Assembly (NCBI GenBank): GCA_903875575.1
Contig: CAIQWJ010000060.1
Span: forward strand, 1 to 51,958
Direction: 5' to 3'
From: an uncultured Acidobacteriia bacterium
GTDB lineage: Bacteria; Acidobacteriota; Terriglobia; Bryobacterales; Bryobacteraceae
Length of the DNA stretch: 51,958 nucleotides
Below the pieces are notes generated by a model. It was given only the letters and a program-made list of their open reading frames with translations, ran no database searches and had not been told where the DNA came from. The position numbers and the translations under genes are program-made. Numbering within the stretch: the stretch's first letter is position 1; every line of letters begins with the position of its first letter. Shown here one piece after another: positions 34,501 through 37,694 of the stretch.

Positions 34501-36012
34501 ATGTACATCCGCGTCCACCCGCGAGACAACGTGGCCATCATCGTCCACCCCGATGGTGCCGCCCCCGGGGCGCAATCGCCTAATGGAATCGTCGCCATCG
34601 AGCGCATCCCTCAATCGCACAAGATCGCTCTTCGCAACTTCGCCCCGCACGACCCGATCCTCCGCTACGGTCAGGTCATCGGCCACGCCAACCGCGCCAT
34701 CCCCGCCGGCTCCTGGATTCGCGAAGATCTGATCGACATGCCCGCGGCACCGCCGCTCGATCAACTCGAGTTGTCCACATCCGTACCGGAGCCGCTGCCG
34801 CCCTTGACTGGCCACACGTTCGAGGGCTATCGCAACCTCGATGGCAGCGTCGGTACCCGCAACATTCTCGGCCTTGCGACTACAGTGCAATGCGTCGCCC
34901 CTACCGTCGAATACGCCGCACGTCGGATCAAAGCCGAACTGCTGCCCCGCTTCCCCAACGTGGATGACGTCGTCGCGGTCACCCACTCTTACGGCTGCGG
35001 AGTAGCCATCAATGCCCCCGGCGCTGCCATCCCGATCGCGACGCTGCGGCACATCTCCCTGCACGCCAACATGGCTGGACAACCCCTGGTCGTCAGCCTG
35101 GGTTGCGAAAAAATGCAACCCGCCGTGCTCTTCAGTAATGATTTTCCAGTTCTCGAAACCAGCAACGTAATCCGCTTTCAGGATCAACGCGGCTTTTCTG
35201 AAATCGTCGCCGCCATCATGGAGGCTGCCGAAAAACGCCTTGCCATTCTCGACGGCCGTCGCCGCCAGACTTGCCCCGCCTCCGACCTCATCGTCGGCCT
35301 GCAATGCGGCGGCAGCGATGCCTTCTCCGGCGTGACCTGCAATCCCGCCGTGGGTGCCGCGGCGGATCTCCTCGTCCGCGCCGGTGCCACCGTCATGTTC
35401 TCCGAAGTCACCGAAGTTCGCGACGCTATCCATCTGCTCACCCCGCGAGCCGAAACGCCGGACGTGGCCCGCGCCCTCATCCGCGAAATGCAGTGGTATG
35501 ACGACTACCTCGCCGGCGGCCGCGCCGATCGCAGCGCCAACACTACTCCAGGCAACAAACGCGGCGGACTCGCCAACATCGTGGAAAAAGCTCTCGGCAG
35601 CGTGGCGAAAGCCGGCAATACAGCGATCCGCGCGGTCGCCTCTCACGGCGAAAAAGTCACCGCGAAAGGTCTGGTCTTCGCCGCCACTCCGGCCAGCGAC
35701 TTCATCTGCGGCACCCAACAACTCGCCTCCATGAATATACACGTCTTCACCACCGGCGAAGGCACTCCCTACGGGCTCTCGCTCGTGCCCGTCATCAAGG
35801 TGTCATCGCGCACGGCACTCGCCGAAAAGTGGCATGACCTCATCGATCTCGATGCCGGTCGCATCGCAACCGGCCACGCGACGGTGGAAGAAGTGGGCAT
35901 GGATCTCTTCCGCATGATGCTCGATGTTGCCAGCGGACGGAAGAAGACCTGGGCCGAACACTGGGGCCTCGCCAATGCCCTTGCGCCATTTAACCCCGGC
36001 CCAGTGACTTGA
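34501..36012 (+). CDS. garD: Galactarate dehydratase
   Basis: Predicted 503 residues, close to E. coli GarD. It dehydrates galactarate to 5-keto-4-deoxy-D-glucarate in the cytoplasm. Recognised segments include an N-terminal SAF-like domain ([37 protein letters not shown]), then [77 protein letters not shown] and [13 protein letters not shown]. These match the UxaA/GarD family, with the His and Cys residues expected for metal binding. It heads the aldarate gene group. The promoter of the downstream candidate sRNA overlaps its stop codon. Confidence 0.93.
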
Positions 36013-36038
36013 AACGATATCTCAATCGGATGTATAAT
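36009..36038 (+). promoter_or_regulatory. Sigma-70-type promoter for the intergenic small RNA
   Basis: TTGAAA (36009-36014) and TATAAT (36033-36038) are separated by 18 bases. The -10 box is a perfect consensus and the -35 box differs at one position. The start point would be near 36045-36046. The -35 box overlaps the garD stop codon, so the promoter serves something between garD and the transporter gene. Confidence 0.65.
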
Positions 36039-36045
36039 CGATACT

Positions 36046-36232
36046 GTGGAGGTGAGCGGCGGCTACCGCCCACCCCCTCGGTTTTCAACTATAGATCCAG
36101 ATGGATCCGCAGTTTGAACCGCAGTTTCCTGAGTATCAGGAGTACATACAGTATCAGAAGACGCATATAGTAATCGCCTCCTTTCTACTCCAGTAGATTA
36201 TGCAAACCCCGTCCCCGAGACGGGGTTTTGCA
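36046..36232 (+). ncRNA. Candidate small RNA of about 187 nt
   Basis: A near-consensus promoter precedes this interval and a strong hairpin ends it, so a discrete transcript of about 187 nt is expected. It contains three stems: GGTGAGCGG with CCGCCCACC (36051-36074, one mismatch, six-base loop), TCCTGA with TCAGGA (36127-36141), and the terminator. A 31-codon open frame (36101-36196, MDPQFEPQFPEYQEY and so on, Gln/Tyr-rich) lies inside, but it has no ribosome site, so I favour a non-coding RNA; a small peptide remains possible. I do not recognise an RNA family. Position between garD and the transporter hints at, but does not show, a role in aldarate use. Confidence 0.5.
36201..36232 (+). terminator. 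Strong hairpin terminator of the small RNA
   Basis: TGCAAACCCCGTC pairs with GACGGGGTTTTGCA around a five-base loop (CCCGA), with a single bulged T. The GC-rich core followed by TTTT is a standard intrinsic terminator, and the extended AT arms would let it act on the opposite strand as well. Confidence 0.8.
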
Positions 36233-36374
36233 TTGGTGGAGTCCGCGGCTCCATGCAAACCTGCCTCTGCAAACTACCGAGCAGAACCCTCATCGTATGC
36301 GTTTCCCTGTAAGTTGTAAAATATCCCCGTTTTTCAAATGGTGGAATTACCGCGCACTGCGCTGCCATACAATT

Positions 36375-37694
36375 GTGAGTTCCGTGCCTGAAACCAGATC
36401 CCGCGTCCGCTACACCGTCCTCGCGATGCTGTTCATCGTCTCGTCGCTGAACTATGCCAGCCGCGCGACGCTCTCCATCGCCGGCCCCGCAGCTTCGAAA
36501 GAACTCGGCATCAACGCCCTGCAACTGGGCAATCTCTTCTCTGCGTTTGGCTGGACGTATGTGATCGCGCAGATCCCAGGAGGTTGGCTGCTCGATCGCT
36601 TCGGCTCAAAGATCGTGTACGCCGTCAGCATCCTCACCTGGTCTGTCTTCACTTTCCTGCAGGGTTTCGCCGGAGCCTTTCACGCGGGCGCGGCGCTGCT
36701 GCTCTTATTCGGTCTGCGTCTGTTGCTCGGCTTCGCGGAAGCGCCTGCGTTTCCGGCCAACAGCCGAATCGTCGCCGCCTGGTTCCCCACTGCGGAGCGA
36801 GGCACCGCCGCCGCTGTTTTCAACTCCAGCCAGTACTTCGCGACTGCGCTCTTCGCGCCGCTCTCCGGCTGGATCACGCACGAGTACGGCTGGAAGTGGG
36901 TCTTCTTCGTGACCGGCGGCATCGGCATCCTGCTGGCGGCCATCTGGATGAAGACAATCTACAGCCCGAACGACCATCCTCGGGTCAGCCAGCACGAACT
37001 CGAATTCATTGAGAGCGGCGGCGCGCTCGTCAACATGGAGACCGGCAGAAAAGCTGCGGGCGGCCCTTCGCAGTGGAACATGATCTGTCAGCTGATGGGC
37101 AACCGCATGCTCGCGGGCGTCTACCTCGGCCAATACTGCATCACCACCATTACCGTCTTCTTCGCCACATGGTTTCCGGCGTATCTGGTCAACGAGCGCC
37201 ACATGTCGATCCTGAAAGCTGGCTTCACGGCTTCCCTGCCCGCCCTGTGCGGCTTCGCGGGCGGCATTGTGGGCGGACTGTTTTCCGACCGCATGCTGAA
37301 ATCCGGAGCGTCCCTCACGAAGGCCAGAAAGGTTCCCATCGTCGCGGGCATGATTCTCTCCGTCTCCATGGTGCTCTGCAACTTCGCGCCAGAGCAGTGG
37401 ATGGTGGTGGTCATCATGTCTCTGGCCTTCTTCGGCAAAGGCGTCGGCGCGCTCGGCTGGGCGGTCATGGCCGATACCTCGCCGAAACAGATCGCAGGAC
37501 TCAGCGGCGGCCTCTTCAATATGTGCGGCAACATCACCACCATCACGACGCCGCTCATCATCGGCTACATCGTCAATCTCACCGGGTCGTATAAAGGCGC
37601 ACTGGTTTATGTGGCGGCGAATGCCGCCGTCGCTATCTTCTCCTATCTCTTCATTGTGGGCGAAATCAAAAGAGTGGAACTTCGCAGCCTATGA
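36375..37694 (+). CDS. MFS aldarate transporter (GarP/GudP-like)
   Basis: Predicted 439 residues from a GTG at 36375 (a second GTG lies three codons on). This length matches E. coli GarP/GudP, while the open frame back to 36228 runs through non-conserved sequence next to the terminator. Typical ACS-family MFS features are [16 protein letters not shown] in helix 1, [20 protein letters not shown] between helices 2 and 3, [22 protein letters not shown], and [13 protein letters not shown] between helices 8 and 9. Twelve spans are expected. It would import galactarate or glucarate with protons. It overlaps gudD by four bases (ATGA), so they are coupled. Confidence 0.88.

Follow-up and report, generated by a model that had tools for sequence, protein, structure and literature searches.

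A putative new type I toxin-antitoxin module family in Bryobacteraceae, read from an antisense RNA unit between garD and a transporter gene

What is encoded in the short gap between garD and the transporter gene that follows it in an uncultured Acidobacteriia bacterium of the Bryobacteraceae? We analysed a 51,958-nt stretch of this genome (contig CAIQWJ010000060.1 of assembly GCA_903875575.1, forward strand; hereafter the window), in which an initial annotation had placed a stand-alone small RNA (sRNA) at 36009..36236, between a D-galactarate dehydratase/altronate hydrolase family protein upstream (garD) and a major facilitator transporter downstream (both by Pfam). The stand-alone character did not hold up, as the unit reads as a cis-antisense RNA whose opposite strand carries a conserved small gene. 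Taken as a whole, the locus appears best read as belonging to a new type I toxin-antitoxin family of the Bryobacteraceae, and we consider it likely that the module is of this kind. The computed evidence comprises a coding frame, the signals of both promoters, the plus-strand terminator, a covarying leader, dispersed and tandem copies, and a module-free junction in two relatives.

On the plus strand, a sequence scan recovers the near-consensus promoter that had been annotated, with TTGAAA (36009-36014) and TATAAT (36033-36038) separated by an 18-nt spacer and matching 11 of 12 consensus bases. Its -35 does overlap the garD stop codon (TGA, 36010-36012), and the promoter is the best match among the four promoter-like sites of 30-42 kb. 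The intrinsic terminator is likewise present as a GC-rich hairpin with a T run (36202-36231, TTTT at 36226-36229), and the bracketed unit, previously put at about 187 nt, comes to about 188 nt. Such a scan is weak by itself and proves nothing, because sites of either kind are no more numerous in 30-42 kb than in shuffled sequence (4 promoter-like sites versus 2.7 +/- 1.7; 9 terminator-like sites versus 11.0 +/- 4.3). The unit rises above chance because its homologues recur at 14 places of its own genome; in addition, 36009-36260 folds far more strongly than its shuffles (z = -4.84, 0/200 as strong).

The nature of the unit emerges from the complementary strand. The element CGCCUCCUUUCUAC in the plus-strand RNA and the conserved plus-strand stretch CGCCTCCTTTCTAC both complement a Shine-Dalgarno site (AGGAGG, 36177..36182 on the minus strand; CCTCCT on the plus strand), behind which lies a small open reading frame (ORF; 36166..36089, minus strand) with its own promoter and a structured leader of about 120 nt. 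Its 25-residue product, MRLLILYVLLILRKLRFKLRIHLDL, is hydrophobic and basic and constitutes the putative toxin. We compared 77 places (80 rows less two duplicates and one short minus-strand match, with two short fragments, G007:C108 and G015:C153:43594, left out) gathered around R1, a covariance model of the leader built from 32 sequences. At 61 of the 77, an ATG ORF of 24-29 codons stands behind a Shine-Dalgarno site on the minus strand; the same holds at 33 of the 45 places outside the model-building set, some of which are close relatives of places inside it, with a chance expectation of 0.084 per place. As R1 reaches no further than about six codons beyond the leader, ORF length is a largely independent result. 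The minus frame also behaves as coding, with a column-permutation z of 8.36 over 23 disjoint pairs (0/500 shuffles as high) and a pN/pS of 0.44, versus 0.57-2.24 in the other five frames.

The 58 distinct intact peptides carry a mean net charge of +4.5 (range 1 to 9) together with a hydrophobic stretch, and they match the profile sought in a type I toxin, a small hydrophobic peptide of less than about 60 residues under coding selection. They fall into two subfamilies, MxLLML...RKRRxKxKIxIDL (I) and MILLLV...GRxTALIVWTRKGRR (II), which are linked through their leaders: R1, derived from subfamily I, matches subfamily II with E-values down to 6.7e-9 (G083), and R2, derived from subfamily II, matches subfamily I at E about 1e-6, all of these values being rough. 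Searches of Pfam (4 peptides), NCBIfam (8) and PHROGs (5, with no match up to E 1) returned no family at cut-off, whether Ibs, Ldr or another named toxin family, in libraries whose coverage of type I toxins was left unchecked.

The putative toxin messenger RNA (mRNA) would run from 36287 to 36041 on the minus strand, with inferred ends, and consist of the leader, the ORF and a 3' hairpin (36048..36077) that on the plus strand forms the 5' part of the antisense RNA and is stabler as minus-strand RNA in 24 of 36 copies (mean -26.0 versus -24.6). A scan places its promoter at 36292..36320 (TTTACA, 36320..36315; TACGAT, 36297..36292), of which the -10 is conserved: among the 52 of 77 places having both the 5' element and enough upstream sequence, 35 show a -10 located 4-9 nt before that element, versus 4.1 in shuffles. 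In the predicted fold of the window copy, the mRNA 5' end (TTCTGCTCGGTAG, 36274..36286) pairs with CTACTGGAGTAGAA (36183..36196), closing the leader just before the Shine-Dalgarno site, while codons 2-4 occupy the site by base pairing. Of the 61 intact copies, 44 have a recognisable 5' element, and 35 of these are predicted to form the 5'-end pairing. Across 38 aligned copies (of 41 references, L057, L071 and L102 being left out), 94.4% of cells are paired, a level reached in 0/500 shuffles and compared with 47-60% for slid partners, although these controls are not probabilities because the structure was derived from the same, related sequences. Two-sided changes occur in 12 of the 25 leader pairs, namely 4/8 in the 5'-end helix and 6/11 and 2/6 in the other two helices. 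A structured mRNA closed to translation, as type I toxin genes would have, is thus suggested by prediction and covariation together. The initial annotation had named conservation or covariation in relatives as its check in advance, and here the unit is conserved in its copies and the leader fold covaries.

Conservation among copies also reshapes the antisense side. The TTGAAA -35, which is partly garD sequence, is not kept, whereas the extended -10 TGn(0-2)TAnnnT is found in 49/61 copies versus 10.1 +/- 2.6 in shuffles. The antisense RNA, a putative antitoxin of about 188 nt, is placed at 36045..36232 from this -10 and the terminator, the latter coinciding on the minus strand with a hairpin of the mRNA leader. 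In the alignment, 32/32 copies share an unchanged terminator core, which reads GCAAAACCCC on the minus strand and so gives the plus strand its T run. We rely on this alignment rather than on a hairpin pattern found at 49/77 places, because its TTTT in 45 of the 49 is partly built in by the demand for at least three As before CCCC. The hairpin is somewhat stabler as plus-strand RNA in 39/49 copies (mean -18.7 versus -18.0 kcal/mol), and its minus-strand tail is not U-rich. Judged by sequence signals, an antisense RNA gene with its own promoter and terminator overlaps the putative toxin mRNA, as in type I systems, and the annotated option of a regulatory RNA is well supported. The conserved unit outreaches 36009..36236, extending to about 36353.

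The initial annotation did not recognise the RNA family, and the Rfam scan of the window gives none at gathering score, its sub-threshold matches being centred on the terminator hairpin. Betaproteobacteria toxic sRNA (RF02278) was rejected at 19 bits versus a gathering cut-off of 50. 6S RNA, considered because of the unit size of about 185 nt, was also discarded, as RF00013 has no match in the window and the sole 6S-like match of the genome lies on another contig (G000:C52, G000 being the genome of the window). That match scores just under the RF00013 cut-off (45.2 versus 46.4 bits), and a module copy (L092, G000:C52:229500-238000) is located about 150 bp from it.

From this arrangement we infer transcription of both strands, peptide synthesis, toxicity, repression by the plus-strand RNA and decay of the duplex, in the following scheme. 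The minus strand would make a short mRNA whose full-length form hides the Shine-Dalgarno site twice over, the mRNA 5' end being paired immediately ahead of it and the site with codons 2-4. This mRNA would encode a hydrophobic, basic peptide of 24-29 residues that probably goes to the inner membrane and would be harmful when overproduced. The plus strand would make the antisense RNA from the extended -10 promoter, with transcription stopping at the intrinsic terminator inside the mRNA leader region. The antisense RNA has complementarity to the Shine-Dalgarno site, the entire ORF and the 3' hairpin, and by pairing with the mRNA it would prevent translation and open the duplex to RNase III cleavage.

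How far the module has spread was assessed with several searches. In its own genome, blastn finds 11 places and R1 finds 14, corresponding to 13 or 14 copies because two places at contig ends share 77 identical letters; these are L036/L089 and L037/L090, at the ends of G000:C100 and G000:C38, contigs that may adjoin, in which case the places may be one copy. R1 matches occur in 12/19 genomes of the genus, in 25/237 of the family (10/76 genera), in the same 25 of 257 of the order, and in 2/396 of a phylum sample, where the own genome is joined by borderline G357 (E 9.9e-4), the sole match outside the family; such counts are lower bounds because the large searches used stricter filters and scored few candidates per genome. 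G204, among the 25, is also borderline (E 9.8e-4), and its place has no ORF of 24-29 residues. The exact core pattern appears in 17 named contig stretches, all from Bryobacterales, Bryobacteraceae, Acidobacteriia or Terriglobia bacteria. R2 matches 21/237 genomes of the family and 17/399 of the class, 7 of them outside the family. Weak R2 matches (L164, L168, L178, L179, L180) were re-scored and left uncounted because the three alignments shown consist of a GCCCGG hairpin with the ORF part mostly unaligned. At the 14 R2-only or weak places L181-L194, a 22-28-residue ORF stands behind a Shine-Dalgarno site in 10, that of L190 being already known from R1. Tandem pairs, 373-404 bp apart, occur on G000:C28, G018:C97, G018:C8 and G190:C379, and broken or truncated ORFs are found among the copies.

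At the window locus, the module as a whole (36013..36353) takes up about 340 bp of the garD-transporter gap, with boundaries inferred from junction comparison and the conserved block. In 16/19 genomes of the genus a garD match exists, in one case no more than a distant paralogue. Fifteen garD loci were read, the own one included, and the transporter falls within the stretch read at three, namely the window and two relatives. In both relatives garD is followed by the transporter across a short gap that lacks the module. The module is for this reason a discrete unit, and one that is apparently gained or lost whole; G006, one of the two relatives, has a copy elsewhere. Downstream of one garD orthologue without a clear module, a weak R1 match of 22.3 bits lies at a distance of about 500 bp (L137:906-1004). 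Just before the transporter start, TGCCATACAAT (36366-36384, plus strand), also present in the two module-free relatives, may be the -10 of a transporter mRNA with almost no leader. The neighbours at 12 other places of the genome differ, and include COX2, CarD, FtsK, frataxin, an RsmB-like methyltransferase, RecO, adenylosuccinate lyase, a glucuronyl esterase-like protein and others, according to Pfam on 20 flanking ORFs that were picked by length and are not always the nearest. Proteins with DUF3738, a family common in Acidobacteria, adjoin three of the examined places (L082, L085, L087), and that abundance is possibly the sole cause.

Upstream of many module mRNA promoters lies a further motif, GGTAATTCCACC in the window (36340..36351, minus strand), of a GGTAATACC-like pattern that occurs in 19/52 copies versus 0.4 in shuffles. 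Besides the window site, examples are located at G000:C57:20791 and G000:C28:103879, and the motif is often followed by GGAGGTAT or similar. Exact GGTAATACCWCC sites number six in the genome, four at module copies and two not. The motif may be the operator of some regulator.

Several observations weigh against a type I toxin-antitoxin module. The 5' element pattern is not found in 17/61 intact copies, and the 3' end of the mRNA is uncertain because its hairpin has no U run. Deriving the covariation structure from the window copy and the consensus gives it an advantage over slid controls, and relatedness among the copies persists in the shuffles. By eye, the hydrophobic stretch spans about 11-14 residues, shorter than a classic transmembrane helix. 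By R1, 212/237 genomes of the family are without the module, and many of the genomes searched are fragmented assemblies. At 16/77 places no ORF of the stated kind is found, two of them being cut by contig ends; several of these places look decayed, which also fits the loss of a useless gene. Finally, two plus-strand frames that share codons with the minus frame exceed their shuffles as well (z = 3.93 and 4.46). The former (0/500 shuffles as high) is the frame of a 31-residue Gln/Tyr-rich peptide proposed in the initial annotation; since it is stop-free in only 26/61 copies and has a Met within its first 8 codons in 2/61, we read its score as leakage from the codon-aligned minus frame, and the peptide finds no support.

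The same RNA layout could instead serve a small membrane protein under antisense control whose role is ordinary and non-toxic, such as that of a membrane regulator. We regard this as unlikely while granting it a minor share: the toxicity is putative, the coding frame and both promoters are conserved, and the two peptide subfamilies keep about equal length and the basic part, yet the high and variable copy number, the tandem pairs and decayed copies, the lack of fixed neighbours and the patchy presence fit a toxin better, as does the double hiding of the ribosome-binding site.

The discrete unit at 14 places would also be accounted for by a non-autonomous mobile repeat that propagates itself, with the ORF and RNAs as by-products, and next to one tandem pair is an ORF whose match to the rve integrase core stays below threshold (31.9 versus a cut-off of 32.6 bits). 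Against this very improbable explanation, inspection of the junction by eye, with no formal test, showed neither terminal inverted repeats nor target duplications, Pfam identifies none of the other scanned neighbours as mobile genes, no module match was obtained in viral contigs (searched with one exact pattern), plasmids or phages, and the ORF is under codon-level selection. Hardly credible, finally, is a stand-alone, trans-acting sRNA targeting many mRNAs through its anti-Shine-Dalgarno CGCCUCCUUUCUACU, which resembles the 16S 3' end, with the minus-strand ORF incidental. The pyrimidine run and the terminator stretch do form the best blastn match across species, and RF02278 has a similar run, though its match is far below cut-off. 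Yet what this stretch complements is the Shine-Dalgarno site of a coding frame (z = 8.36) that has its own conserved -10, and the covarying leader has its 5' arm outside the sRNA, so that coding, covariation and minus-strand -10 results largely refute this idea. A 16S-like anti-Shine-Dalgarno sRNA had been considered from the conserved CACCTCCTTTCTAC, and fell to the opposite-strand Shine-Dalgarno site and ORF seen in copy after copy.

As a putative type I toxin-antitoxin module, the locus can be set beside characterised systems. Ibs peptides have 18-19 residues, AapA1 is basic with about 30, and Hok has about 50. The module peptides are shorter than those of Hok/Sok and of Ldr, the latter having 35 residues (PMC4147584). 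Five chromosomal copies of Ibs/Sib, as a 140-nt repeat, are described in Escherichia coli MG1655, where the Sib RNAs cover the whole ibs coding region and the ribosome-binding site (PMC4147584). The module shares the very short hydrophobic peptide, the several chromosomal copies and an antisense RNA over both ORF and ribosome-binding site, but differs in its 24-29-residue peptide with a basic part, in its phylum and in a leader that folds back on a stretch beside the Shine-Dalgarno site, a distinction drawn from these features rather than from direct sequence comparison. With Ldr/Rdl it has in common tandem copies, as in the LDR repeats, a long leader and antisense control (PMC4147584). The AapA/IsoA systems of Helicobacter pylori similarly combine a closed full-length mRNA, long-distance pairing, a Shine-Dalgarno-hiding hairpin in the ORF and a cis antisense RNA. 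For AapA3/IsoA3, the primary transcript is non-translatable, long-distance pairing joins the 5' and 3' ends, an anti-Shine-Dalgarno motif hides the site, and a second hiding hairpin lies inside the ORF (PMC6733600); in the module mRNA the 5' end instead finds its partner immediately ahead of the Shine-Dalgarno site, and the likeness drawn here is one of layout. MsoT1/MsoA1 of Microcystis, a type I-like locus outside the three classical phyla (PMC12390103), is cyanobacterial and is likened here by description, not by sequence.

The module would represent a new family of an already known kind, the type I toxin-antitoxin system. According to PMC12390103, the cyanobacterial case it reports was preceded by such systems in Proteobacteria, Firmicutes and Tenericutes alone, and their confinement to few phyla is described there as thought to reflect search methods. 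Our literature search on type I toxins with Acidobacteria, Acidobacteriota or Solibacter found no type I report, with subscription journals thinly covered and an earlier report possible; it returned a marine survey that counts orphan toxins and antitoxins in Acidobacteriota, their type not given in the excerpt, and a type II survey. A family found in Acidobacteria through leader structure and antisense signals supports the search-method explanation of the narrow phylum range. It also provides a search recipe, in that a conserved "anti-Shine-Dalgarno" sRNA may betray a tiny gene encoded opposite to it. Within the Bryobacteraceae, 13 or 14 copies in one genome, together with two module-free junctions, make the spread and decay of the module directly testable.
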